Shown here piece after piece: positions 14,876 through 30,629 of a stretch of 46,874 bases of DNA. This DNA comes from Gammaproteobacteria bacterium (lineage in GTDB: Bacteria; Pseudomonadota; Gammaproteobacteria; Steroidobacterales; Steroidobacteraceae): assembly GCA_025350055.1 (NCBI GenBank), contig JANXYK010000034.1:1-46874 (forward strand), in the 5' to 3' direction. The notes below the pieces were generated by a model. The model saw only the letters and a program-made list of their open reading frames with translations. It was not told the DNA's origin and made no database searches. Numbering within the stretch: position 1 is the stretch's first letter; the number at the start of each line of letters is the position of its first letter. The position numbers and the translations under genes are program-made.

Positions 14876-15433
14876 TCAGGCACGCGGCATGGCATTGCGG
14901 TTGCGTTGCCACTCGCTGCGCGACTGCCCCCACAGGTCGACGGCCGCGTCTTCGAGCGGTGCGGGTAGTTTACCCCGGCCGCGATTGGTGGAGCCGAGGC
15001 GCCGCGCCAGTGCCTGCGAAGCCAGGTTCTCGGGCGCGATGCAGTGGATGACTTCCTTCCATTGCAGCTGTTCGAATACCCAGTCCATCGAAGCACGCGC
15101 CGCTTCGGTGGCATAGCCCTGGTTGCAGTAATCGCGACGGATGCTCCAGCCCACTTCGCTCCCGGGCCAGCCTTCGGGCATGGTCGGCCCGACCCGGCCC
15201 AGCCACACGCCGCTGCGTCGCTCGAGCACCGAGAACATGCCGAAGCCCATCGCTGACCAGCTGCCCACCGCGACCATCAGGAAACGCCACACCGACATGC
15301 GCGGTTGCACGCCGCCGATGAAGCGCATGCTCTGCTCATCCAGCATGAACTGCGACCAGTCGTCGAGTTCCTCGAGCCGCGGCTGGCGCAGCACCAGCCG
15401 TTCGGTTTCTATGCGCAGATGGCGGTCATACAT
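14876..15433 (-). CDS. GNAT N-acetyltransferase (RimJ/RimL type)
   Basis: Acetyltransferase of 185 residues using acetyl-CoA. It opens with the RimJ/RimL-type strand IETERLVLRQPRLEELDDW, followed by GRVGPTMPEGWPGSEVGWSI and the acetyl-CoA loop region RRDYCNQGYATEAARA, in which the family RxxxGxGxA/Q motif is relaxed to RRDYCNQGYA. ENLASQALARRLGS is the final helix seen in RimJ/RimL members. The substrate amine (protein N-terminus or small molecule) cannot be read from the sequence. It is the third gene of the five-gene minus-strand run, nine bases after the preceding GNAT gene. Confidence 0.88.
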   Translation of the reverse strand: MYDRHLRIETERLVLRQPRLEELDDWSQFMLDEQSMRFIGGVQPRMSVWRFLMVAVGSWSAMGFGMFSVLERRSGVWLGRVGPTMPEGWPGSEVGWSIRRDYCNQGYATEAARASMDWVFEQLQWKEVIHCIAPENLASQALARRLGSTNRGRGKLPAPLEDAAVDLWGQSRSEWQRNRNAMPRA

Positions 15434-15442
15434 CGCTATACC

Positions 15443-15952
15443 TCAGGGCGCTATCCGCAAACCCATCAACACCAGGTCGCGTTCGTGCTCATCGAGCCGC
15501 GCGACGCGCGGCAAGTTGCCCCAGCGCGCGAATCCGGCCCGCGCGAACAGCTGCAGGCTGGGTTCGTTGTGGCCGAAGATGAATCCGAGCAGCGTGCGCA
15601 GGCCGAAACCGGGCGAGGCCTGCACTGCACGCTGCAGCAGCGCGCTGGCAATGCCCTGGCGGCGCGCCTGCGCGGCCACGTACACGCTGATCTCCGCGGT
15701 CGCCGCGTAGGCGGGGCGCCCGTAGAAATCCGCGAAACTCAGCCATGCAGCCACCTGGCCCTGCTGCTCCACCACCCACAAGGGACGCGTGGCACCGGCG
15801 TGCGCCTCGAACCAGGCGCGCCGGCTGTCGACTGAAACGGGATCGAGGTCGGCAGTCACCAGGCGCGAGGCCACGGTATCATTGTAGATGGCCACGATGG
15901 CTGGCAGGTCGCCGGCGCGCGCGAGACGGTGCGCAATCGCTGCCGCGTTCAC
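15443..15952 (-). CDS. GNAT N-acetyltransferase (phosphinothricin acetyltransferase-like)
   Basis: Acetyltransferase of 169 residues. The opening AGDLPAIVAIYNDTVASR, the motif WLSFADFYGRPAYAATAEISVYV and the acetyl-CoA loop RRQGIASALLQRAV, followed by GFIFGHNEPSLQLFARAGF, are typical of the PAT/Bar/MddA group. That group acetylates small amines such as phosphinothricin or methionine sulfone. The start is GTG overlapping the stop of the upstream GFA gene (GTGA), which implies coupled translation. Which amine it modifies is not known. Confidence 0.88.
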   Translation of the reverse strand: MNAAAIAHRLARAGDLPAIVAIYNDTVASRLVTADLDPVSVDSRRAWFEAHAGATRPLWVVEQQGQVAAWLSFADFYGRPAYAATAEISVYVAAQARRQGIASALLQRAVQASPGFGLRTLLGFIFGHNEPSLQLFARAGFARWGNLPRVARLDEHERDLVLMGLRIAP

Positions 15953-19353: not shown

Positions 19354-19382
19354 TTGACCGTTTGTGCATTTTTATGCAAACT
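19354..19382 (+). promoter_or_regulatory. Putative argR-operon promoter
   Basis: TTGACC at 19354-19359 is a strong -35 candidate; 17 bases later CAAACT (19377-19382) is a weaker -10. The two ARG-like boxes cover the spacer, the -10 and the region just after it, which would allow repression by occlusion. Confidence 0.45.
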
Positions 19383-19401
19383 GCGCGCATATTTATGCAG
19401 A
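19363..19401. promoter_or_regulatory. Tandem ARG-box-like operator for ArgR
   Basis: Box 1 has the perfect palindromic core TGCATTTTTATGCA at 19365-19378. Box 2 has the core CGCATATTTATGCA at 19386-19399. Their cores are offset by exactly 21 bases, which equals two 18-base boxes separated by 3 bases, the arrangement used by E. coli ArgR. The half-site is GCAT rather than the E. coli GAAT. Box 2 ends four bases before the argR ATG, so autoregulation and control of the whole arg operon are likely. Confidence 0.7.
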
Positions 19402-19405
19402 GGCG

Positions 19406-19861
19406 ATGATGCTCCATGACAATCACCTGCAGGTCAGGCGCGATGCCATCCTGGGTCTGCTGCGCGGCGGCGCGGTGCGGCGCCAGGCCGAACTGACCCA
19501 GCTGCTGCGCCGCAAGGGCTTTGCGGTCACGCAGTCTTCCGTGAGCCGCGACCTGCGCGAGCTGGGCGTGCTAAAGGCCAGCGGCCGCTACCTGCCCCCT
19601 GCCAGCGAGAGCGCTCATGCCAACGGCAACTTCGGCGCGCTGGCGCAGTTCGTGCGCTCGGTGAAGCCGGCTGGTGCCTCGCTCACGGTGATCCGCACCA
19701 GCATTGGCACGGCGCAGAGCGTTGCGGTCGCCATCGACAAGGCCGAGTGGCCCGAGGTGGTCGGCACGATCTCGGGCGATGACACGATCTTCGTCGCCAC
19801 CCCGGCGGCACGCGCCCAGCAACGCCTGCTGGCGCGGCTGCGCGAACTGTTCGGAATCTGA
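19406..19861 (+). CDS. argR: Arginine repressor ArgR
   Basis: Arginine-sensing transcription factor, 151 residues. An N-terminal winged helix (VRRDAILGLLRGGAVRRQAE, then VTQSSVSRDLRELGVLK at about 41-57) is followed by the C-terminal hexamerisation and arginine-binding domain. That domain contains the conserved GTAQSVAVAID segment and GDDTIFVATP, where the two aspartates normally contact L-arginine. ATG 19406 follows AGAGGCG; the longer frame back to 19364 would translate through the operator. It is the first gene of the arginine operon, five bases from argG. Confidence 0.93.
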   Translation: MMLHDNHLQVRRDAILGLLRGGAVRRQAELTQLLRRKGFAVTQSSVSRDLRELGVLKASGRYLPPASESAHANGNFGALAQFVRSVKPAGASLTVIRTSIGTAQSVAVAIDKAEWPEVVGTISGDDTIFVATPAARAQQRLLARLRELFGI

Positions 19862-19865
19862 AGCC

Positions 19866-21143
19866 ATGTCCAAGCCAGTTGAACCGGGCGCCATGCCCAT
19901 CGTGCTTGCCTATTCAGGCGGTCTCGACACTTCGTTCCTCGTTCCCTGGGTGGCCGAGCAGTACCACCGGCCGGTGATCACGGTCACGGTCGATACCGGC
20001 GGCATCGATGCCCAGGCGGCTGAAACACTGCGCGAGCGCGCGCTGAGCCTGGGCGCCATCGCCCATCACCAGGTCGATGCACGCGCCGACTACTTCGAGC
20101 AGGTGCTGCGTTTCCTGATCATGGGCAACGTGCGTCGCGGCCAGCTCTACCCGCTGTGCGTCGGTGCCGAGCGCGTGATGCAGGCACAGACCATCGCCCA
20201 CATGGCGCGCAAGTTGGGCACCAGTTCCATTGCGCATGGCTGCACCGCCGCGGGCAATGACCAGGTGCGCTTCGAGGTCGCGCTGCGCACGCTGGCGCCC
20301 GATCTCGAGATCATCGCGCCGGTGCGCGATCGCGCCTTCAAGCGCCAGGAAGAACTCGAGTACCTGCAGCAGCGCAAGCTGCCGGTGCCGCCTTATGGCG
20401 CCGCCTACTCCACCAATCGCGGCCTCTGGGGCGTGACCATCGGTGGCACCGAGACTCTGACCTCGCAGGGCAGCATTCCCGAGAACGCCTGGGTGCTCTC
20501 GAAGGGCGCCTTCGACCAGCCGGCACTGCCGCAACATCACACGCTGCGCTTCGAGCGCGGGCGCCCGGTGGGCCTCGATGGCAAGGCGTTGTCGCCGGTC
20601 GCGCTGATCGAGCGACTCGAGACACTGGCTGCGCCTTTCGGCATCGGCCGCGGCATCCACCTGGGCGATACCATCATCGGCACCAAGGGCCGCGTGGCCT
20701 TCGAGGCGCCGGCGGCCGAGGTGCTGCTGAGCGCGCATCGCGAGCTGGAGAAACTGGTGCTCACCGCACGCCAGCAGCGCATCAAGGAAAGCGTGGCCCA
20801 GCCCTATGGCGACTGGGTGCACGAGGGGCAGCTGCTGGATCCGGTGTGCCGCGACATCGAGGCCCTGCTGGTCAGTTCGCAGGAGCGCGTCACTGGCGAT
20901 GTGCATGTGCTGCTGCGGCCCGGCAGCGTCTTCATCGAGGGCGTGGAATCGCCCTACTCGCTGATGGCCGCATCCAAGGGTGTCTACGGTGAATCCGCGG
21001 GCGAGTGGACGCCCACCGATGCGCTCGGCTTCTCGAAGATCGTGGCGCTCACCGGCATATTCCATGCGCGCGCCGGCGAACTGGCGGCGAAGGCCGCCGC
21101 CCCTCCTGCAACTTCAGCCGCTACGGAGCAGCCCGGTCAATGA
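19866..21143 (+). CDS. argG: Argininosuccinate synthase
   Basis: Joins citrulline and aspartate with ATP to make argininosuccinate, the penultimate step of arginine synthesis. The N-type PP-loop AYSGGLDTSF is at residues 15-24. Further family stretches include AHGCTAAGNDQVRFEV and the C-terminal EWTPTDALGFSKI. Length is 425 residues, within the family range, with an Ala/Pro-rich tail. The four-base ATGA overlap with the next gene shows they are translated together. The order argR-argG-X-argC is unlike the E. coli scattered genes. Confidence 0.93.
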   Translation: MSKPVEPGAMPIVLAYSGGLDTSFLVPWVAEQYHRPVITVTVDTGGIDAQAAETLRERALSLGAIAHHQVDARADYFEQVLRFLIMGNVRRGQLYPLCVGAERVMQAQTIAHMARKLGTSSIAHGCTAAGNDQVRFEVALRTLAPDLEIIAPVRDRAFKRQEELEYLQQRKLPVPPYGAAYSTNRGLWGVTIGGTETLTSQGSIPENAWVLSKGAFDQPALPQHHTLRFERGRPVGLDGKALSPVALIERLETLAAPFGIGRGIHLGDTIIGTKGRVAFEAPAAEVLLSAHRELEKLVLTARQQRIKESVAQPYGDWVHEGQLLDPVCRDIEALLVSSQERVTGDVHVLLRPGSVFIEGVESPYSLMAASKGVYGESAGEWTPTDALGFSKIVALTGIFHARAGELAAKAAAPPATSAATEQPGQ

Positions 21144-22219
21144 AAAGCGTAGTCGTCGACAAGATCGCTTCCATCACGCAGGCCTGCGCTCTCGCCCACG
21201 AGCTGCGCATCAACGATGAGATCCCCGCCGAGGAAGGCGTGGTGGTGGTCGCCGAGATCCTCAACAACAAATCGACCTATAACACGCTCGAGCTTACCAG
21301 CGGACGCATGGCCAAGGTGGCGCGCGGCGATGTGGTGGTCGGCGCACTCGGGCCGCGCAAGGCGTTGTTCGGTTACTCGGGCCACGTGCCCGAGTCGCTC
21401 AAGCCTGGCGATGTGATCCAGATGCTGAACATCGGCGGCGTGATGGGCATCTGCGATTCGGCCACGCCCGACAAGGGCAAACCCTTCGACTGCCGCGTGC
21501 TGGGCGTGGTGCTGCAGTTTCCGTACCTGGGCGAGCGCATCGGTGTGCCCGCGCGCGTGGGCTATCGCCGTCTCGATCTCGAAGCCACGCTCGATGCGCG
21601 CGGCGTGCCCATCGTGGCGCTGGCGGGCACCTGCATGGAAGCGGGCAAGACCGCAGCCGCCGCCGCGATCGTCTCGCGCATGCGCCATCGCGGGCTGGTG
21701 GTCGATGCCTTCAAGGCCACGGGCGTTTCGCTGCGGCGTGACATCATGGCCTTCGAAGATGCCGGCGCGCGCAAATCGATGATCTTCACGGATCTCGGCG
21801 TGGTGACTACTTCGCCGCGTACCGGTCCTGCGCTCACGCGCACCATGCTCACGGATCTCGCCGCGGGCAAACCCGATGTGATCGTGTTCGAGCTGGGCGA
21901 TGGCCTGCTCGGCACCTACGGCGTCGATGCCATTCTCGATTGCGAGGACATCCGCCGCGCACTCACCGGCGTGGTGCTCTCGGCCAACGATCCGGTCGCG
22001 GCCTGGGGCGGCGTCAAGCTGCTGCGCGAGCGCTTCAAGGTCGACCCCTGCATGGTCACGGGCCCCGCCACCGACAACCAGGTAGGCGTCGACATCATCC
22101 GTCAGCAGATGAATGTCGCGGCCTGCAATGCCATCAGCAATCCGGCGGTACTCGGCGATGCGATCATCAAGGCCGTTGGTCTCGAATCTCGCGCCGCTGC
22201 GGCCGTCGCCAGCGAGTAG
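21140..22219 (+). CDS. DUF1611/DgcN-like P-loop protein in the arginine operon
   Basis: A 359-residue protein between argG and argC, joined to argG by an ATGA overlap. Residues 162-171 are a P-loop-like AGTCMEAGKT, followed by MRHRGLVVDAFKATGVSLRR. This matches the pattern GTxCxxGK, then MRxRGxxxDxxATG, of DUF1611 proteins as I remember them. A later stretch, DVIVFELGDGLLGTYGVDAIL, fits the same fold. DUF1611 member DgcN is reported, from memory, to N-acetylate glutamate. The N-terminal 150 residues are not recognised. The operon lacks any known N-acetylglutamate synthase, so this gene is a candidate for that step. The homology is moderate and the function is inferred. Confidence 0.55.
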   Translation: MKSVVVDKIASITQACALAHELRINDEIPAEEGVVVVAEILNNKSTYNTLELTSGRMAKVARGDVVVGALGPRKALFGYSGHVPESLKPGDVIQMLNIGGVMGICDSATPDKGKPFDCRVLGVVLQFPYLGERIGVPARVGYRRLDLEATLDARGVPIVALAGTCMEAGKTAAAAAIVSRMRHRGLVVDAFKATGVSLRRDIMAFEDAGARKSMIFTDLGVVTTSPRTGPALTRTMLTDLAAGKPDVIVFELGDGLLGTYGVDAILDCEDIRRALTGVVLSANDPVAAWGGVKLLRERFKVDPCMVTGPATDNQVGVDIIRQQMNVAACNAISNPAVLGDAIIKAVGLESRAAAAVASE

Positions 22220-22239: not shown

Positions 22240-23298
22240 TTGAGCAAAGTACCCACCATCGTGCTCGGCGGCACCGGCTACGTGGCCGGCGAACTGCTGC
22301 GCCTGATCGCTCTGCACCCGCAGCTGGCGCTGGCCGGCATCATGTCGGATGGCAGCGCGGGTGAAGCTGTGGCCACAGCCTTTCCGCATCTGGCCAGCGT
22401 CTATCGTGGCGTGCATTTCAAATCGCAGGCTGAGATCGAGCAGCTGCTCAAGCAACACCGTCAACCGGCCTTGCTGGCCGCGGCGCCGCACGGCGTCTCG
22501 GCCGCGCTGATCGACCAGCTGCTTAACGCTGCCGAGCAGGCCGGCAACGCGCCGCGGATCGTGGATATCTCCGCCGATTTCCGCTTTGCGAGCGCCAGCG
22601 CCTACGAAGCAGTCTACAAGCATCCGCACGGCGCACCCGCGCGGCTGGCACAATTCAGCTGCGCGCTGCCCGAGCACCTGGCGACGCTCAAGACACCGCA
22701 TGTGGCACATCCGGGTTGCCTCTCGAGTGCCACGCTGCTCGCGGCCGTGCCCCTGCTGGCACTCAACCTCATCGAGCCGCAGCTGTTCGTCGCCGCGATC
22801 ACCGGCAGCACCGGTTCGGGGCGCAAGCCCAGCGAAGGCACCCACCACCCCACGCGCCACAGCGACCTGTACGCCTACAGCGCGCTCGCGCATCGGCACG
22901 CGCCCGAGATCGCGGCCTGCGCGCACAGCGCCAGCGGCGTCGCGGCAAATTTCGCCTTCGTGCCGCACTCAGGCCCGTTCGCGCGCGGCATCCACGCGAC
23001 CGTGCAGGCAGTGCTGAAGAGACCGCTGGACAGCGCCGCACTCAACGCACAACTGCGCGACTATTACACGCACGCACCCTTCGTGCAGGTGAGCGAGCGC
23101 GCGCCGCGCGTCAAGGAGATCGTTGCCAGCAACTACGCGCGGCTCAGCGTCGCCAGCGACGGGCGCACGGTGGTGGTGATGAGTGTGCTCGACAATCTCA
23201 CCAAGGGCGCAGCGGGCGGCGCGGTGCAATGGCTGAACCGCCTGCTGGGGTTTGCCGAAGACACCGGCCTCACGGCACCGGCAGCGGGCTGGACATGA
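22240..23298 (+). CDS. argC: N-acetyl-gamma-glutamyl-phosphate reductase (N-acyl type)
   Basis: NADPH-dependent reductase that turns N-acyl-glutamyl phosphate into the semialdehyde, 352 residues. The nucleotide-binding loop VLGGTGYVAGELLRL opens the protein, the catalytic cysteine is Cys160 in HPGCLSSAT, and GSTGSGRKPSEGTHHP follows, as expected for the family. The start is taken as TTG at 22240 because no ATG or GTG lies upstream of the Rossmann motif without crossing a stop; a GAGAG stands about 12 bases before it. It overlaps argD by four bases (ATGA). Confidence 0.9.
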   Translation: MSKVPTIVLGGTGYVAGELLRLIALHPQLALAGIMSDGSAGEAVATAFPHLASVYRGVHFKSQAEIEQLLKQHRQPALLAAAPHGVSAALIDQLLNAAEQAGNAPRIVDISADFRFASASAYEAVYKHPHGAPARLAQFSCALPEHLATLKTPHVAHPGCLSSATLLAAVPLLALNLIEPQLFVAAITGSTGSGRKPSEGTHHPTRHSDLYAYSALAHRHAPEIAACAHSASGVAANFAFVPHSGPFARGIHATVQAVLKRPLDSAALNAQLRDYYTHAPFVQVSERAPRVKEIVASNYARLSVASDGRTVVVMSVLDNLTKGAAGGAVQWLNRLLGFAEDTGLTAPAAGWT

Positions 23299-24437
23299 AC
23301 GCGGCCCGCGATTTCCTCGCGCCTGTGTTTGCGCAATATCCACTGGAGGTGAGCTCTGGCGAGGGCGTGTGGCTGCACACCGCCTCGGGTCGCCGGGTAC
23401 TCGATCTCTACGGTGGCCATGCCGTGGCCGCGCTGGGTTACGGCCATCCGGGCTGGACCCGCGCGCTAGCCGAGCAGGCGCAGACACTGAATTTCCAGAG
23501 CAACGCGGTGCCGCTCGAAGTGCGCGCCCGCGCCGCCGCGCGCCTGATCGAATTCTCGCGCCTCGATTTCAACAGCGTGTTCTTCGTGAACTCCGGCGCC
23601 GAGGCCAACGAGAACGCGCTCAAGATGGCCTTCACGATCACCGGCCGCAGCGAAGTGGTTGCGCTCGAGCACAGCTTCCACGGCCGCACCGCCGCGGCCG
23701 GCGCGCTCACCTGGGGCGCCGCCGGCAAGTGGTACGGCCTGCCGCGTACGCCTTTCGATGTGCGCTTCATCGCGCGTCGCGATCTGTCCGCGCTCAACGC
23801 GATCAGCGAACGCACCGCGGCGGTTGTCGTCGAGCCAGTGCAGGGCGTGGGCGGCGCCTTCGATCTGGGCGCCGAGTATCTCGCCGCACTGCGTCGCCGC
23901 TGCAATGAGACCGGCGCGCAGCTGGTCTTCGATGAAGTGCAATGCGGCATGGGTCGCACGGGCGAGCCCTTCGCCGCCAATCTCTATGGCGTGCAGCCCG
24001 ACATGCTCACCACCGCCAAGGCACTGGGCAATGGCTTCCCCGTGGCCGTGCTGATGATGACGCCGCGCGTCGCCAGCGCGGTCAAGCTCGACGCGCTCGG
24101 TACCACTTTTGGTGGCGGCCCGATGGCCTGCGCCGTGGTCTGCGCCGTGATCGATGCGATCGAATCCGAAGATCTGCTCGCGAACGTGCGGCGCGTGAGC
24201 GCGTGCATCCGCGAGCGCTGCCTGGTGGGTCCGGTGCATGGCTTCCAGGGCGCGGGGTTTCTTGCCGGCCTGATCTGCTCGCGACCCGCGAAAGACATCC
24301 AGCGCGCGCTGCTCGAGCGCGACATCCTCACCGGCACCAGCGGCGATCCGCAGGTGTTGCGCCTGCTGCCGCCCTTCATCCTGCGCGAATCCGAGGTCGA
24401 GCTGCTGCGCAGTGCGCTGCTCGATATCGGGCCCTGA
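23295..24437 (+). CDS. argD: N-acylornithine aminotransferase (class III PLP enzyme)
   Basis: PLP-dependent transaminase that makes N-acylornithine from the semialdehyde with glutamate as amino donor, 380 residues. The phosphate-binding FFVNSGAEANENALK, the ring-stacking HSFHGRT, the PLP-contacting aspartate in VFDEVQCGMGRTG (D213) and the Schiff-base lysine K242 in TTAKALGNGFPVA are all present. ATG 23295 overlaps the argC stop; the frame before it is the shadow of argC. Whether the acyl group is acetyl or succinyl cannot be read from this enzyme. Confidence 0.92.
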   Translation: MNAARDFLAPVFAQYPLEVSSGEGVWLHTASGRRVLDLYGGHAVAALGYGHPGWTRALAEQAQTLNFQSNAVPLEVRARAAARLIEFSRLDFNSVFFVNSGAEANENALKMAFTITGRSEVVALEHSFHGRTAAAGALTWGAAGKWYGLPRTPFDVRFIARRDLSALNAISERTAAVVVEPVQGVGGAFDLGAEYLAALRRRCNETGAQLVFDEVQCGMGRTGEPFAANLYGVQPDMLTTAKALGNGFPVAVLMMTPRVASAVKLDALGTTFGGGPMACAVVCAVIDAIESEDLLANVRRVSACIRERCLVGPVHGFQGAGFLAGLICSRPAKDIQRALLERDILTGTSGDPQVLRLLPPFILRESEVELLRSALLDIGP

Positions 24438-24444
24438 AGCCGTT

Positions 24445-25440
24445 ATGAAACGTTTCACCGATCTGGCTGAAGTGGGCCGCGAGCAGGTGCTCGAACTGCT
24501 GGCGTTGGCGCGGCGCCTCGAGGCGCAACCGGAACCGCGGGCGCTGGCAGGCAAAGTGCTCGGGCTCCTGTTCATGAATCCGTCGCTGCGCACGCTGGCT
24601 TCCTTCCAGGCTGGCATGGCACGCCTGGGCGGCGCTTCCTTCGTGATCACTCCCGGCCAGGGCACCTGGCAACTCGAGACGCGCGAGGGCGTGGTGATGA
24701 ACGGCGCCGCTGCCGAGCACATCCGCGAAGGCTTGCCGACGCTGGCCTCGTACTGCGATGTGATGGGCATCCGCGCCTTTGCCGAAGGCAAGGATCTGGC
24801 CACGGATCTCGCCGAGACACGCTTCAATGCAATGGCCGCACTGGTGCAGAAGCCGCTGATCAATCTCGAGTCGGCGATGAATCACCCCTGCCAGGCACTC
24901 GCCGACTGGAAATCAATCGACGAGCTCGCGCTGCCGCAGCGTGCGCGCTTGGTGCTGAGCTGGGTGCCGCATCCCAGGGCATTGCCGCTCGCGGTGCCGG
25001 CGGCGACAGTGCACATGGCGGCGATGCGCGGCATGGACGTCGTGGTGCTGCGCCCCGAAGGCTTTGCGCTGCCCGCGCCCGTGATGGACGCCGCGCGCAG
25101 CGCCGCGGCAGCCAGCGGTGGATCCGTGCAGGAAACCGCCGATCGCGCCGCCGCACTCGCCGGCGCACACATCGTCTACGCCAAGGAATGGGGCTCGACC
25201 ACTCATTACGGCGACAAGGCCGCCGACCAGCGGCTGCGCGGCGCGCACCAGGACTGGTGCCTGCGCAATGTATCCTTCGCGCGCAGCGCCGCCGATTGCC
25301 ACCTGATGCATTGCCTGCCGGTGCGTCGCAATTGCGCGATCGCCGATGAAGTGCTCGATGGCCCGCGCAGCATCGTGCTGCGCCAGGCCTACAACCGCAT
25401 GCCGGCGCAGATGGCTGTGCTGCATCGGCTGCTATCATGA
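24445..25440 (+). CDS. argF': N-acylornithine carbamoyltransferase (ArgF'), acetyl- or succinylornithine type
   Basis: Carbamoylates N-acylated ornithine instead of free ornithine, 331 residues. Carbamoyl-phosphate motif FMNPSLRT is at residues 43-50, NHPCQALAD follows in the middle, and HCLPVRRN lies near the C-terminus. The stretch TWQLETREGVVMNGAAAEHI resembles, from memory, Bacteroides fragilis succinylornithine transcarbamylase more than the Xanthomonas acetylornithine enzyme. At the specificity position before EHI (Pro90 in Bacteroides, Glu92 in Xanthomonas) this protein has Ala90. It starts seven bases after argD. Confidence 0.85.
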   Translation: MKRFTDLAEVGREQVLELLALARRLEAQPEPRALAGKVLGLLFMNPSLRTLASFQAGMARLGGASFVITPGQGTWQLETREGVVMNGAAAEHIREGLPTLASYCDVMGIRAFAEGKDLATDLAETRFNAMAALVQKPLINLESAMNHPCQALADWKSIDELALPQRARLVLSWVPHPRALPLAVPAATVHMAAMRGMDVVVLRPEGFALPAPVMDAARSAAAASGGSVQETADRAAALAGAHIVYAKEWGSTTHYGDKAADQRLRGAHQDWCLRNVSFARSAADCHLMHCLPVRRNCAIADEVLDGPRSIVLRQAYNRMPAQMAVLHRLLS

Positions 25441-25462: not shown

Positions 25463-26401
25463 ATGATGATGCACCGGGCTGACCAGCTCGCGACCATACG
25501 CGCCTTGCGCGCGGCGGCGCCTTACATCCGCCTCTACAAGGGCAAGATCTTCGTGGTGAAGGCCGGTGGCGCCGTGTTCGGCGACGCTGCGCAGACGCGC
25601 TCGCTGATCGAACAGATCGCAATCCTGCACAGCCTCGGCGTACGCGTGGTGATGGTGCACGGTGGCGGACCGCAACTCACCGAAGTCACGGAAGCCATGG
25701 GCGTGCCCACGCGCATGATCGCCGGACGGCGCGTCACCGACGAGAAGGCGATCGACGCCACCTCGATGGTGCTCAATGGCCTGATCAATACGCGCATCCT
25801 CTCGATCTGCCGCGACCAGGGGATCGATGCGGTCGGTCTCTCGGGTGTCGATGCGGGGCTGGTGATCGCGCACCGTCGCCCGCCCGTGAAACTCAAACCC
25901 ACCGACACGGAGACGGTCGACTACGGTTTCGTTGGCGACATCGATCGCATCGATACCACCGTGATCAGGAAGCACCTGGACAACGGCTTGATGCCGGTGA
26001 TCAGCCCGCTCTCGGCCGACGAACGTGGCCAGCTGCTCAACATCAATGCCGACACGGTGGCTGCGGCCATCGGCGCGGCACTCGAGGCCGAGAAGCTGAT
26101 CCTGTGTACTGGAGCGCCCGGCATACTCGACAACGTTGCCGATTCGGGTTCGGTGGTGTCGTACATCGATCTCGCGGCCCTCAAGCGCATGCGCGATGAG
26201 GGCAAGATCGTCAATGGCATGCTGCCCAAGGCCAAGGCGATCGAGGATGCGATCCGCGGCGGCGTGCGCCGCGTGCACGTGATTTCCTACGCCGCACCTG
26301 ATGGAATTCTTACGGAAGTCTTTACCAATGAGGGTACCGGCACGCTGATCGTCGCCGATACCAAGGCGCTGACGCCCGCCGAACAGCAACCGGCCGGCTG
26401 A
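25463..26401 (+). CDS. argB: N-acetylglutamate kinase (N-acylglutamate kinase)
   Basis: Amino-acid kinase that phosphorylates N-acylglutamate, 312 residues. Conserved parts are VVKAGGAVFGD, VMVHGGGPQLTEV, the substrate loop RMIAGRRVTDE, LNINADTVAAAIGAAL and the C-terminal DGILTEVFTNEGTGTLI. It ends there: no C-terminal GNAT domain is fused, unlike the ArgA-ArgB fusions of Xanthomonas. The operon therefore shows no conventional N-acetylglutamate synthase. The frame starts ATGATGATG, 13 bases after an AAGGAG. It is the last arg gene before the accessory region. Confidence 0.93.
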   Translation: MMMHRADQLATIRALRAAAPYIRLYKGKIFVVKAGGAVFGDAAQTRSLIEQIAILHSLGVRVVMVHGGGPQLTEVTEAMGVPTRMIAGRRVTDEKAIDATSMVLNGLINTRILSICRDQGIDAVGLSGVDAGLVIAHRRPPVKLKPTDTETVDYGFVGDIDRIDTTVIRKHLDNGLMPVISPLSADERGQLLNINADTVAAAIGAALEAEKLILCTGAPGILDNVADSGSVVSYIDLAALKRMRDEGKIVNGMLPKAKAIEDAIRGGVRRVHVISYAAPDGILTEVFTNEGTGTLIVADTKALTPAEQQPAG

Positions 26402-26525: not shown

Positions 26526-27377
26526 GTGAAAACACGGCTCGCCAGGGCGCTGTTTCGCAGCTGGCCGCTACCCTTCGCGCATGTGCGCCTGATGAAGTGG
26601 ATCGACCCGCCGCGGGTAGCCGCCGTCGAGGTCACCACCGAACTCAAGCGCTACGGCCTGCGGCTCAGTTACGATCCGAATTCCTACATTGGCCGCTATA
26701 TCTACTATCGCGGCCTGTTCGAGGAGCAGGTGCTCAGGGCCATCGAGCGCGCGCTGCGGCCGGGCGGCACCTTCATCGACATAGGCGCCAATATTGGCCA
26801 GCACACGGTAGTCGCGGCGCATTGCGTAGGCACAGGCGGACGCGTCATTGCCTTCGAGCCACAGGCAGTGGCACGCGCGCGCCTGGTCCACAACATTGCG
26901 CTCAACAACCAACAGGACCGGGTCGAGGTGCACGCTTGTGCGCTAGGCCGCGAGCAGGCGCCGGGCAATATCTACGTGCTGAACGACAACAACGACGGCC
27001 AGAGCAGCCTGCGCCCGGTGACACACACAGAACCGAGCGAGGCGGTGCAGATTGAAACACTGGACGGCATGGACCTGGACGTCGACCTGCGTCGCGGCTG
27101 CGTGGTCAAGATCGATGTCGAGGGCGGCGAAATCGATGTGCTCGATGGCGCGGTCGAATTTATACGAACGGTGCGCCCGCAGGCCTTGTTTGTCGAATGT
27201 GCTAACCGGCACCTGCAGCGCTTCGGTTACTCGGGCCTCGATGTGCAGCACTGGCTGCGCGAGCACGGCTACGATGTACAGGGCCTGGTGCACGGACGCT
27301 GGCAGCCGCTGAACCGGTCAATCGACTGCGACCTGCTGGCTACGTCGCGCAAACCAACGCGCAGGTCATCGCACTAG
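26526..27377 (+). CDS. FkbM-family SAM-dependent methyltransferase, copy 1
   Basis: A 283-residue FkbM-type O-methyltransferase. The SAM-binding motif GTFIDIGANIGQHTVVAA lies near residues 80-97, followed by the acidic ribose contact in VIAFEPQAVAR and the later family motif VVKIDVEGGEIDVLDGA. FkbM proteins methylate hydroxyls on polyketides, sugars or glycolipids. The start is GTG at 26526, and an upstream hydrophobic/basic N-terminus precedes the domain. It is followed 28 bases later by a second, divergent FkbM gene, so the pair may decorate one glycan or lipid. Confidence 0.87.
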   Translation: MKTRLARALFRSWPLPFAHVRLMKWIDPPRVAAVEVTTELKRYGLRLSYDPNSYIGRYIYYRGLFEEQVLRAIERALRPGGTFIDIGANIGQHTVVAAHCVGTGGRVIAFEPQAVARARLVHNIALNNQQDRVEVHACALGREQAPGNIYVLNDNNDGQSSLRPVTHTEPSEAVQIETLDGMDLDVDLRRGCVVKIDVEGGEIDVLDGAVEFIRTVRPQALFVECANRHLQRFGYSGLDVQHWLREHGYDVQGLVHGRWQPLNRSIDCDLLATSRKPTRRSSH

Positions 27378-27405: not shown

Positions 27406-28176
27406 ATGTCGCTCAACACGTCCAGACTCATCCGCAATGTCGGGCGCGTGCCTGAGCTGCTGCGTGCCGTGCTTGCAACTCCTCAGTGGTTTGACCTGAC
27501 TACGGGCTACCTGAGATTGAAGCAGCCTTATCCATTGGTGCTGCGCTTTCGCAATCGGCAGCGAATCACGCTGATCAATCGCTCGGATCTGGCGACTTTG
27601 TGGCTGGTGTTCTTTCCTCCCACGTACCCGGTCTATGTTTCGGATCAGCGCATTCTTGACCTCGGGGCCAACATCGGTGCTTTTTCGCTTTTCGCCGCCA
27701 ACCGTGCGCCGCAGGCACACATAGTTGCTGTGGAACCATTCCCTGAGACATTCAGAAAGTTCGTTGCAATGCTTGAGGAAAACCAACTGACGCATCGAGT
27801 TACGGCCATATCGGCAGCGTTGACTGGCAGCGACAGGGAGGTGCACATCAATGATTCACCGGGTATGGACAGTCAATTCCGCAACGTATCCAATCGAGGG
27901 CTATCGGTCACGGGCATATCGTTGAGTTCCCTTTATGAACGAGCAGGCTGGGACAGCGCTGACCTCCTGAAGATCGACATTGAGGGTAGCGAATACGATG
28001 GACTGCTGGCTGCGTCGCCGGAAGTACTGCGCCGCGCTGGCCGAATTGCCATGGAGTTTCATCCGGATCCACGTAAACAGAAACTCTTTGATCACCTGCG
28101 CGAAGCTGGTTTTCGGTTGCAATCCGAGCGCGATGACGGAGCAGGCTACGGGATGGCCCATTTCACAAGGGTCTGA
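27406..28176 (+). CDS. FkbM-family SAM-dependent methyltransferase, copy 2
   Basis: A 256-residue FkbM-type methyltransferase. The SAM motif RILDLGANIGAFSLFAA lies near residue 82, with HIVAVEPFPETFRKF and LLKIDIEGSEYDGLLA later in the protein. Similarity to the preceding copy is limited to the domain motifs, so they are not a fresh duplication. Base composition looks lower in GC than the surrounding genes, with more A/T third positions, which suggests transfer. It ends at 28176; the convergent RES gene ends 37 bases further on. Confidence 0.85.
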   Translation: MSLNTSRLIRNVGRVPELLRAVLATPQWFDLTTGYLRLKQPYPLVLRFRNRQRITLINRSDLATLWLVFFPPTYPVYVSDQRILDLGANIGAFSLFAANRAPQAHIVAVEPFPETFRKFVAMLEENQLTHRVTAISAALTGSDREVHINDSPGMDSQFRNVSNRGLSVTGISLSSLYERAGWDSADLLKIDIEGSEYDGLLAASPEVLRRAGRIAMEFHPDPRKQKLFDHLREAGFRLQSERDDGAGYGMAHFTRV

Positions 28177-28213: not shown

Positions 28214-28927
28214 CTACGTCCAGTTGCCAGCGTCGAATTCGAAGCTCTCGCCCGCCACGCCAGAGCGCTGCAGGCGCGCGCCGGCAGCCGTACAGCGGCA
28301 TACCCAGGTCTGCATGGGCGAGGTGCGGCTTAGCGTGAGCGCCGCCGCCTCGAAGACTGCGCCGCAGACACCCGACTCGACGCGCGCCGACTGGTAGCGG
28401 ATCCAGGCCACGCGCTGGGTTCGCGCTGCCGCCGCAAGCTCATGGCAGGGGCCATAGTCGCGCCGATGCCGCCAGTGCTGCTGCGCGCCGCTCCAGGGGA
28501 CACGTGTCAGATCGAGGCAGCGGCCGCGCACCTGGGCGCGAATAAAACTGTGCGTGGTGTGCAGCGCCTGGCCCGCCAGCCCATCACTGTCCGTAAGGAA
28601 GCGCCAGCGCCAGTAGCCGGCTTCGGCGCAGGCAGTGCGCAGCTCTTCGGCGCCGTACCAGGCGCCGGGGTCGAGCGCACGCCGGAAGCGCGAGGCAATC
28701 GGTGAGCGGTAGCGGAATGGCGTGGTCAGCAGGTAGTGGCGCGTGTGCGTGTGCGGCGGGAGCCCCGGCTTGCTCTCCTCGATTAGCTCCTCGAGTACGC
28801 GATGATCTGCGGCCGACTCGGTAAGGCGGAGCGTGGCGATAAGATGCTGCGCCTCGACGCCGCGCCACAAGAGGCGGCTGCGCTTACGCAGGCCTTCGAA
28901 CCAGGCGGCTTGCCAGGCTGCGCTCAC
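28214..28927 (-). CDS. RES-domain toxin (predicted NAD+-degrading enzyme)
   Basis: A 237-residue protein with a RES domain. The region PFRYRSPIASRFRRALDPGA, then WYGAEELRTACAEAGYWRW, carries the invariant arginine, tyrosine and glutamate pattern of RES toxins. Known members deplete NAD+ by phosphorolysis or hydrolysis. It is larger than minimal RES toxins (about 150-180 residues), with an N-terminal helical extension. Its GTG start overlaps the antitoxin stop (GTGA), the usual toxin-second arrangement. It may poison growth when unpaired. Confidence 0.82.
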   Translation of the reverse strand: MSAAWQAAWFEGLRKRSRLLWRGVEAQHLIATLRLTESAADHRVLEELIEESKPGLPPHTHTRHYLLTTPFRYRSPIASRFRRALDPGAWYGAEELRTACAEAGYWRWRFLTDSDGLAGQALHTTHSFIRAQVRGRCLDLTRVPWSGAQQHWRHRRDYGPCHELAAAARTQRVAWIRYQSARVESGVCGAVFEAAALTLSRTSPMQTWVCRCTAAGARLQRSGVAGESFEFDAGNWT

Positions 28928-29325
28928 AGCGGAGCACGCATTCCATCCAGGTAGGCGACCACACCCGCGAGTCCTTCGGCTCGCTCAATCAGCTCGACCG
29001 GCCGCCCATTCAGACCGCGGTTGTAGCTGCCGAGCCAGCGCAGCCGCTGCTCGGCGTCGTTCCCCACCAGGGCATCGAGCGAGCGGTACAGGCGCACCAG
29101 TAGCAGTGCCAGCTCGCCTTCCTTGCCGGCCGGATCGATCAGCCGCGCGCCGCTTGCCAGCCGTGAGACGCCAGCCTCGCTCACGCCCAGCAGCCGCGCC
29201 AGCGCAGCGCGCGACAACCCCAGCAGCGCGGCGGTGCGCAGCACCGCGCCCGAAAGCACGCGGGCGGCCTCGGCCGGCCGGACCGCTGCGGTGCCCTGGA
29301 TCTTTCCGGATTCCGCGTGGGCCAT
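28924..29325 (-). CDS. Xre/MbcA/ParS-type antitoxin
   Basis: A 133-residue antitoxin partner of the RES toxin. A helix-turn-helix lies near residues 32-60 (LGLSRAALARLLGVSEAGVS), and the C-terminal DUF2384-type toxin-binding segment ends RWLGSYNRGLNGRPVELIE, then AGVVAYLDGMRAPL. The ATG at 29325 is chosen because AAAGGAG stands six bases upstream; a longer in-frame extension would translate through the operator. Together with the palindrome at 29334-29347 it should repress its own operon. Confidence 0.85.
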   Translation of the reverse strand: MAHAESGKIQGTAAVRPAEAARVLSGAVLRTAALLGLSRAALARLLGVSEAGVSRLASGARLIDPAGKEGELALLLVRLYRSLDALVGNDAEQRLRWLGSYNRGLNGRPVELIERAEGLAGVVAYLDGMRAPL

Positions 29326-29333
29326 GTATGCTC

Positions 29334-29356
29334 CTTTCACGTGAAAGAATACTATA
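29334..29356 (-). promoter_or_regulatory. Palindromic operator and -10 element of the Xre-RES operon
   Basis: CTTTCACGTGAAAG at 29334-29347 is a perfect 14-base palindrome overlapping the antitoxin Shine-Dalgarno sequence. On the minus strand a TATAGT -10 candidate lies just upstream at 29351-29356; no good -35 is seen. A bound Xre dimer here would block the promoter. The same A/T-rich gap also holds the argH upstream region. Confidence 0.6.
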
Positions 29357-29435
29357 TTTTTCATTCAGTTGCAAAATGACCCCAGTACCCGCCGGCGAGG
29401 CTATGATTGGCGCCGGACATGGAATCCGGGATCAT

Positions 29436-30629
29436 ATGAGCAGACTCTGGGACAAGGGCGCACCGCTCGATCAGCACGTGCTGCAGTACACGGCTGGCGA
29501 AGACTACGCGCTCGATGAACGCCTGGTGCGCCACGACATCCGGGCCTCGCTGGCCCATGCCCAGATGCTGCACGCCCAGGGTCTGCTGGCCGCGGCCGAT
29601 CTGGCCGCCATCAGCGCCGGGCTCGAGACCCTGGGTGCGGCCCATGCGCGTGGCGAGTGGTACGTAGAGCTCGCCGACGAGGATGGTCAGACCGCGCTCG
29701 AAAAGCGCCTGACTGCGGCCGTCGGTCCGGCCGGCGGCCGCATCCACCTCGGGCGCTCGCGGAACGATCAGGTGCTGGCCGCGCTGCGCCTCTACCTGCG
29801 CGAGGCGAGCGAGGCGCTGGCGCTCGGCGCTGAGGCGGTTGCTGCCGCGCTCGATCGGCTGGCGCAGCGCCAGGGGACGATCGTGCTGCCGGGCTATACG
29901 CACATGCAACAGGCCATGCCGAGTTCAGTTGCATTGTGGTGCGGCGGATTTGCCGCCGAGCTGCGCGACGATGCCGCCGGCCTGCGGGCCGTGCGCCGGC
30001 GCGCCGGCCGCAATCCACTGGGCTCGGCTGCCGGCTACGGCACGCCTGGGCTGCCGCTCGATCGCGAGATGACCACGCGCGCGCTCGGGTTCGAGAGCAC
30101 GCAGGAGCCCGTGACCGCGGTGCAACTCTCGCGCGGCAAGGCCGAAGCTCAGCTGCTGTTCGAGATCACGCTGTGCATGCAGGATCTCGGACGCCTGGCC
30201 GCCGACCTGCTGCTGTTCTATACGCAGGAGTTCGCCTTCGTCACTCTGCCCGATGCCTTTACGACCGGCTCGTCAATCATGCCGCAGAAGCGCAACCCGG
30301 ATGTCTTCGAGCTGCTGCGCGGCCGCTCCGCCAGCGCCCTCGCCTGCCTCACCGAGGCGCTGGCGCTGTGCGCCAAGCTGCCCTCGGGCTACCAGCGCGA
30401 CCTGCAGCTGCTCAAGGCACCGCTGTTCCGCGGCATCGATTTCTGCCAGCAGAGCCTGGACATCCTGGGCCCGGCCCTCGACGCGCTGCAGTTCCAGCCC
30501 GATTGCATTGCCATGGATCCCGCAGTGCACGCGGCCAGCGAAGCCTACGCCCTGGTTGTCAAGGAAGGGCTACCGTTTCGCGAGGCCTATCGGCGCGTCG
30601 CCGCGCAGCTCAAGTCTTCGGGCAAGTGA
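29436..30629 (+). CDS. argH: Argininosuccinate lyase, Bacteroidetes-like type
   Basis: Cleaves argininosuccinate to arginine and fumarate, the last step of the pathway started by the operon at 19.4-26.4 kb. The catalytic signature GSSIMPQKRNPD is complete, and HLGRSRNDQV and LPGYTHMQQAMP are conserved. At 397 residues it is shorter than E. coli ArgH (457). Its N-terminus reads SRLWDKGAPLDQHVLQYTAG in place of the usual LWGGRF, a form I associate with Bacteroidetes enzymes. ATG 29436 is the best start; ATGs at 29403 and 29375 are less likely. It is separated from argB by 3 kb of accessory genes. Confidence 0.92.
   Translation: MSRLWDKGAPLDQHVLQYTAGEDYALDERLVRHDIRASLAHAQMLHAQGLLAAADLAAISAGLETLGAAHARGEWYVELADEDGQTALEKRLTAAVGPAGGRIHLGRSRNDQVLAALRLYLREASEALALGAEAVAAALDRLAQRQGTIVLPGYTHMQQAMPSSVALWCGGFAAELRDDAAGLRAVRRRAGRNPLGSAAGYGTPGLPLDREMTTRALGFESTQEPVTAVQLSRGKAEAQLLFEITLCMQDLGRLAADLLLFYTQEFAFVTLPDAFTTGSSIMPQKRNPDVFELLRGRSASALACLTEALALCAKLPSGYQRDLQLLKAPLFRGIDFCQQSLDILGPALDALQFQPDCIAMDPAVHAASEAYALVVKEGLPFREAYRRVAAQLKSSGK

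Follow-up and report, generated by a model that had tools for sequence, protein, structure and literature searches.

The 46,874-nucleotide contig JANXYK010000034.1 of a gammaproteobacterium in the family Steroidobacteraceae (assembly GCA_025350055.1; the whole stretch is referred to here as the window) carries an arginine biosynthesis operon with the order argR-argG-X-argC-argD-argF'-argB, in which adjacent genes are separated by -4 to 23 bases. Gene X is an open reading frame (ORF) of 359 amino acids at 21140-22219 (+), and its ATG start overlaps the argG stop by 4 bases (ATGA). Operon gene identities were taken from Pfam and NCBIfam profile matches, which together with the ORF coordinates confirm the gene order and the argG-X overlap described in a first-pass annotation of this DNA; argH, absent from that annotation, lies downstream of argB on the same strand, 3034 bases away in this genome. 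We propose, with a probability of about 0.68, that X is a non-GNAT P-loop N-acyl-L-glutamate synthase, the first enzyme of the arginine pathway. The features of the locus are:

19365-19399 (unstranded): two ARG-box-like palindromes, TGCATTTTTATGCA and CGCATATTTATGCA, whose starts are 21 bp apart, shortly before the preferred argR start
19406-19861 (+): argR, arginine repressor (PF02863, PF01316)
19866-21143 (+): argG, argininosuccinate synthase (PF00764, PF20979)
21140-22219 (+): X, candidate N-acyl-L-glutamate (probably N-succinyl-L-glutamate) synthase, from context, distribution and predicted fold
22243-23298 (+): argC, N-acyl-gamma-glutamyl-phosphate reductase (TIGR01850, 281.9 bits, cut-off 233.6)
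23295-24437 (+): argD-type N-acylornithine aminotransferase (PF00202; TIGR00707 best, 303.5 bits, below its cut-off of 410)
24445-25440 (+): argF', knotted-type N-acylornithine carbamoyltransferase (PRK04523, 330.7 bits, cut-off 288)
25463-26401 (+): argB, N-acylglutamate kinase, 312 amino acids (TIGR00761, 212.9 bits, cut-off 151.3)
29436-30629 (+): argH, argininosuccinate lyase (TIGR00838, 291.2 bits, cut-off 279.5)

The two motifs previously read in X are present, GTCMEAGKT from residue 163 and MRHRGLVVDAFKATG from residue 181. ArgB does end at 312 residues without a fused ArgA, since no acetyltransferase domain was found in it and Pfam gives the kinase domain PF00696 only.

The position of X within the operon is conserved. 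A single scan of genome contigs returned 186 relatives of X, the best 80 of which were analysed as loci (L numbers); this locus sample and the genome sample described below (G numbers) partly coincide. Among these 80, argG and argC flank X in every locus that is readable there: argG directly precedes X in 77 of the 77 loci with more than 1000 bases upstream (62 by a strict rule; in the remaining 15 the aligned argG runs up to X or a short way into it), and argC directly follows it in 78 of 78 (77 by the strict rule, with L039 overlapping by 3 bases). Two loci with 44-45% identity (L096 and L098) have the rearranged order argD-argF'-argB-argH-argG-X-argC, and a short contig (L097) holds argG-X-argC only. 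In a genome of another class (L162, genome G586), an X that is 70% identical belongs to a module argR-X-argC-argB without argF', argG and argH, such that X is retained beside argC and argB, the genes for the two steps that follow the one proposed for X. Median identity to the window is 80.5% for ArgG, 78.6% for X, 74.4% for both ArgB and ArgH, 72.7% for ArgF', 68.6% for ArgD, 66.2% for ArgC, and 61.4% for ArgR; X is thus second only to ArgG, in a set of loci whose selection by similarity to X biases the comparison in its favour.

In a class-wide sample, 17 of 274 genomes match X, comprising three close matches (G000, which is the window's own genome, G015, and G225), three with 42-45% identity whose arginine operons have a different gene order, and 11 with about 30% identity that, within the reach of the contigs, are not in arginine operons. 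A phylum-wide sample yielded matches in 20 of 398 genomes, strong only in G000 and G586, with three of the distant kind (G562, G419, and G621) and 15 short matches to the P-loop region (E 5e-5 to 1e-3). In some genomes, only part of the candidates was scored (up to seven in the class search and five in the phylum search), so either search may have missed relatives. X relatives were not found on viral contigs. Two metagenome-derived contigs titled Klebsiella pneumoniae (L026 and L057) carry the operon with an X of 76-78% identity; these titles look wrong.

Presence of X was compared with that of known N-acylglutamate synthases in 64 genomes, of which 60 were drawn from the family and four (G225, G098, G176, and G292) were picked for carrying X. 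X is present in 59 of the 60 family genomes, in 63 of 64 when the picked genomes are counted, and in all 50 of good quality; the genome without X (G059) is 62% complete, and G043 has an end fragment only. The single-contig genomes G010 and G028 both carry X, as does G225, an order-level relative. ArgA was above its cut-off in none of the 64 genomes, and ArgJ was found in none, in searches that did not include models of their own for ArgA2 and ArgA3. The NAT-type synthase domain was found in 0 of the 60 family genomes, in a search whose controls gave no signal, and in 0 of the 4 picked genomes, in a separate search with a match in G071 as its positive control. X sits in a pathway that is nearly complete apart from this step, and for which ArgA above cut-off, ArgJ and NAT each score 0 of 64. 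In the window's own genome (96.3% complete, 76 contigs), ArgJ had no match and the ArgA model matched the ArgB kinase region only; the absence of argA and argJ noted for the operon in the first-pass annotation thus extends to its genome and to the whole set, and the copy elsewhere in the genome that it had raised as an alternative was searched for and not found.

The outgroup behaved differently. Sixteen genomes were hand-picked from the 274 of the class, eight with and eight without a distant X relative; 14 have ArgA, 14 have ArgJ (a fragment in G145), and G071, which has neither, has a NAT domain, so that all 16 contain at least one known synthase. G586 has X and no ArgJ, the search there having covered ArgJ and not ArgA or NAT, and the six other genomes searched with it all have ArgJ, including G562, G419, and G621 with their distant X relatives. 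Operon conservation, complementarity with the known synthases, and the argR-X-argC-argB module support the earlier proposal that X is the missing N-acylglutamate synthase; that functional proposal is well supported by the genomic evidence, whereas the family assignment made with it is not.

The residues of ArgF' provide an indication of the acyl group, which the first-pass annotation had not specified. In PMC4581275, Glu92, Asn185, and Lys302 of the Xanthomonas enzyme are markers for acetylornithine, with A/S/P/V/Q, P, and V/I/E as the corresponding succinylornithine set (for succinyl-type letters at these positions see also PMC7311316). The window's ArgF' has Ala90, Pro181, and Ala298 at these positions. 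Of the 72 loci with an ArgF' match, 70 can be read at the first two positions: at Glu92, 68 have A, one has P, and one has V, and at Asn185 all 70 have P. The Glu92 column was set by aligning ArgF' with 3kzc and related Xanthomonas structures, among which this residue varies and which we take to be Glu92 mutants, and the Asn185 and Lys302 columns were read by motif from the same alignment. Because two of the three markers are of succinylornithine type, and none is of acetyl type, the acyl group of this pathway is probably succinyl. Succinylated arginine synthesis is described in PMC7311316 and PMC9026213 for Bacteroidetes, with a GNAT-type synthase.

X had been assigned to the DUF1611 family, of which DgcN N-acetylates D-glutamate by a non-GNAT mechanism, and this membership is not borne out. 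Pfam returned no family for X at E 0.01 and no GNAT match; at a lax threshold, DUF1611 (PF07755) was the sole match, at 13.7 bits (E 0.042) against a gathering cut-off of 25. DUF1611_N (PF17396) was not matched at E up to 10, nor was the DgcN equivalog NF041892, and the neighbours of X are arg genes. DUF1611/DgcN proteins (PF07755, NF041892; structures 7xrj, 2obn, and 2g0t) resemble X in having a GT....GK P-loop followed by a TG stretch, and differ from it in the DUF1611_N domain, the P-loop signature, and the operon. The P-loop reads GTCMEAGKTAA in 42 of 42 rows of the X alignment and GTDC..GK[KMR] in 11 of 11 DUF1611 rows, a signature that X does not have; X keeps the Walker A threonine in GTCMEAGKT, a position occupied by K, M or R in each of the 11 DUF1611 rows. 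A profile of 19 X rows aligned to the 11 DUF1611 proteins with an hhalign probability of 39 over 150 columns, good only at the P-loop. The resemblance to the DUF1611 P-loop pattern is thus real, although below threshold, and, since the likeness is limited to the P-loop, X is at most a remote cousin of that family; one distant X relative (L099, 29.5 bits) does pass the DUF1611 cut-off.

Membership is further weakened by a separate DgcN-like DUF1611 gene in the same genome, at L081 1108-2112 (+), which scores 457.8 bits with NF041892 (cut-off 480) and 244 bits with PF07755. By eye, its neighbours are amino-acid permease-like and dipeptidase-like frames, and no dgcA was recognised among them; the NCBI gene names dgcN and dgcA both occur in DUF1611 annotation. 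A second frame in this group, L082 1459-2223 (-), appears by eye to combine a helix-turn-helix-like N-terminus with a DUF1611 C-terminal part (PF07755 positions 125-195), and adjoins a transporter-like frame. DUF1611 genes directly precede alanine/ornithine racemase-family genes in L174 and L175, possibly another amino-acid N-acylation pair.

The AlphaFold model of X (pLDDT 80.2, pTM 0.79) has a beta-rich N-terminal part (residues ~1-150) and a P-loop domain (~157-350) with GTCMEAGKT as Walker A. Its Foldseek matches are mainly BioD, HypB, and SRP GTPases; the DUF1611 structure 2obn is among the matches of this moderate model, behind other P-loop proteins at rank 31 (E 3.4e-4), with a query TM-score of 0.41, the highest among the 50 fold matches listed. 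The N-terminal part, predicted to be nearly all beta, gave a poor model when folded alone (pLDDT 63.5) and no Protein Data Bank (PDB) match under E 0.5; by our own reading its weak match list contains several OB/S1-type proteins, which were not used as evidence. A sequence search for solved structures related to X gave 0 matches, and a gyrase profile match (E 1.1) was taken as chance. The predicted fold of X is not GNAT, being a beta-rich N-terminal part joined to a BioD-like P-loop domain. Outside the P-loop, K-TGV-L-RD, D-GA, F-D, E-GDG, DP, and GP-TDN-VG are invariant in the 19 X rows, and these residues look like an active site.

Other known systems are compared as follows. BioD, MobB, HypB, and cobyric acid synthase share with X the fold and a GT....GKT P-loop, the form found in BioD with its Walker A threonine; X scores far below the curated cut-offs of this group (mobB 17.3 against 76.2) and is set apart from it by the beta-rich N-terminal part, which has no confident fold match. 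ArgA, ArgJ, and ArgB-NAT synthases act at the step proposed for X, and no sequence relation to them was seen. ArgA2 (BT3761; relative Cabys_1732), proposed in PMC7311316 and PMC9026213 as the GNAT-type N-succinylglutamate synthase of Bacteroidetes, is like X in predicted reaction, arginine-operon site, and succinyl-type ArgF' partner (PMC7311316, PMC9026213, and PMC5317091); it is annotated as a GNAT (PMC9026213), unlike X, which has no GNAT match.

Distant relatives of X (~30% identity, in other proteobacteria and on plasmids) are homologous to it over nearly its full length (probability 100, E 4e-51, 318 columns) and, unlike the arginine-operon X, lie outside arginine operons as far as read. 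Their own match to the DUF1611 profile (probability 61, 39 columns) again covers the P-loop. A tree of 35 rows, whose root serves display only and which carries a warning that long branches meet, places the arginine-operon X proteins on one side of a branch supported at 97/96. No other arg gene was found near a distant relative in 12 of 12 fetched stretches, some of only 5-9 kb, or in L163 and L164, and L165 has an ArgD-like aminotransferase 2.8 kb away. All 11 tested genomes with a distant relative and without X have ArgA and/or ArgJ. Two of seven plasmid relatives are annotated as DUF1611 domain-containing proteins. On a Priestia megaterium plasmid (L170, 2730-11418), a distant relative accompanies a carbamoyltransferase, two ATP-grasp amino-acid ligases, an M20 peptidase, and PEP mutase; this set of genes resembles a cluster for a phosphonate natural product, where the role of the X relative may be to attach a protecting acyl group. 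On Rhodobacterales plasmids (L168, L169, and L171), distant relatives directly precede an ABC transporter gene.

The operon begins behind conserved ARG-box-like sites upstream of argR. The argR ORF has an alternative GTG start at 19364, and ATG 19406 is preferred because the ARG boxes sit at the former. A pattern search with up to 1 mismatch found two ARG-box-like matches before argR against 0.03 expected; with up to 2 mismatches, at least one site occurs in 69 of the 69 loci with enough upstream sequence and at least two in 37, as compared to 0.14% of shuffled regions with such a site. A palindromic ARG-box array also precedes argR in L162. The paired palindromes are likely the putative ArgR operator of the operon.

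The interval between argB and argH, which is below 200 bases in 57 of the 60 related loci that contain both and about 1.9 kb in L001, L003, and L004, contains in the window two FkbM-type methyltransferase genes, 26526-27377 and 27406-28176 (+), and, on the opposite strand, a RES-domain protein, 28214-28927 (-), with an Xre/MbcA/ParS-type antitoxin, 28924-29364 (-), likely a toxin-antitoxin pair.

We infer from these observations that X acts on L-glutamate. It would acylate the amino group to give the substrate of ArgB, and N-succinylglutamate would then pass through its phosphate and semialdehyde to N-succinylornithine and, by ArgF', to N-succinylcitrulline, from which a deacylase would release citrulline for conversion to argininosuccinate and arginine. 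X would thereby replace the ArgA, ArgJ, and NAT-type synthases in the window's family, in G225, and in another three genomes of the class; it would do so too in one genome of a different class (G586), to the extent that the search for ArgJ shows. Its P-loop would most likely hold the phosphates of succinyl-CoA, or of ATP activating succinate. ArgA and DgcN use CoA donors, a precedent that would favour CoA, while the intact Walker A would favour ATP. A form of the proposal that we regard as rather unlikely makes X an ATP-dependent ligase, whose BioD-like Walker A would bind MgATP and convert succinate to an acyl phosphate for transfer to L-glutamate; the wider X family would then consist of amine-protecting enzymes, as in the L170 cluster with its amino-acid ligases and M20 peptidase. 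To our knowledge, an acyl-phosphate mechanism would be unlike those of ArgA, ArgJ, NAT, and ArgA2.

Several points weigh against X being an N-acylglutamate synthase, or against parts of that proposal. The DUF1611 likeness, which alone ties the sequence of X to a known N-acyltransferase, does not extend beyond the P-loop; the fold model is of moderate quality and was built from close relatives only; and, because the Walker A is complete, X could be a different kind of ATPase. In 16 of the 64 genomes, G000, G010, and G028 not being among them, the ArgA model has GNAT-only matches of 20.2-45.5 bits, and ArgA2 (the Bacteroidetes GNAT) and ArgA3 (M20-like) fall outside the models used. The locus and genome samples are not independent, since they include partly the same genomes. 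In ArgF', 65 of the 69 loci readable at Lys302 have A there, with V in 2 and E in 2, A lying outside the published V/I/E set, and the column that we equate with Arg178, the residue anchoring the succinyl group of the B. fragilis enzyme (PMC4581275), is R in 55 of 70 loci and K in 15 (including L096, L098, and L108); K being the Xanthomonas letter, this mixed column counts against succinyl for those 15. In L096 the ARG-box sites have 2-3 mismatches and are weak, and in L098 none were found. Finally, no deacylase was recognised among the operon genes by Pfam or NCBIfam, the genome itself not having been searched for deacylase families, and, as that step also has no gene assigned to it, a single operon gene faces two steps without an assigned enzyme.

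This last point would allow X to be the missing N-succinylcitrulline desuccinylase rather than the synthase. We consider this very improbable and rejected it: the L162 module pairs X with argR and with argC and argB, the genes of steps 2 and 3, in the absence of the later genes; the absence of every synthase searched for would need another explanation; and we know of no P-loop domain of this kind that is an amidase. Of similarly slight probability is an ordinary DgcN-type D-glutamate N-acetyltransferase placed in the operon by chance, for which the weak DUF1611 match and 2obn speak. Such a misplaced paralogue was rejected in view of the DgcN-like gene at L081, the lack of DUF1611_N and of the GTDCxxGK[KMR] motif in X, and an X-operon link that holds in all readable loci.

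A more substantial, though still doubtful, alternative gives X some other role in the operon (an ATP-dependent accessory protein, a regulator, or a side-step enzyme) and leaves N-acylglutamate synthesis to an unrecognised protein such as a short GNAT. The canonical Walker A and the BioD, HypB, and SRP GTPase fold neighbours are consistent with it, as are 12 PF00583 matches in G000, among them two genes, 14876-15433 (-) and 15443-15952 (-), which lie upstream of argR at distances of 4 and 3.4 kb. The second of them resembles acetyltransferases for glutamate analogues (arsinothricin/phosphinothricin; ArsN1a 97.3 bits, below the cut-off of 170). Neither of the two recurs in the 80 loci, many of whose contigs are too short, the remainder of those genomes not having been searched; they were rejected as the synthase. 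Comparison of the 12 matches with the 9 of the closed genome G028, which covers the GNATs detected by PF00583, gives no more than two corresponding pairs at E 1e-6. One is RimI-like by our reading (54% identity) and the other has 46.5% identity, both below the constraint on X. Against any such protein, X and the absence of known synthases go together in every genome sampled.

Unrelated enzymes are known to have replaced one another at the first step of arginine synthesis, and searches of an open-access literature collection found no report of an enzyme such as the one proposed here. If X is indeed a P-loop N-acylglutamate synthase, it would be a further, structurally unrelated solution for this step and would provide the first function for a family whose members are presently labelled hypothetical or DUF1611-like. 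It would also fill the first arginine step across a whole bacterial family and extend succinylated arginine synthesis beyond the Bacteroidetes.

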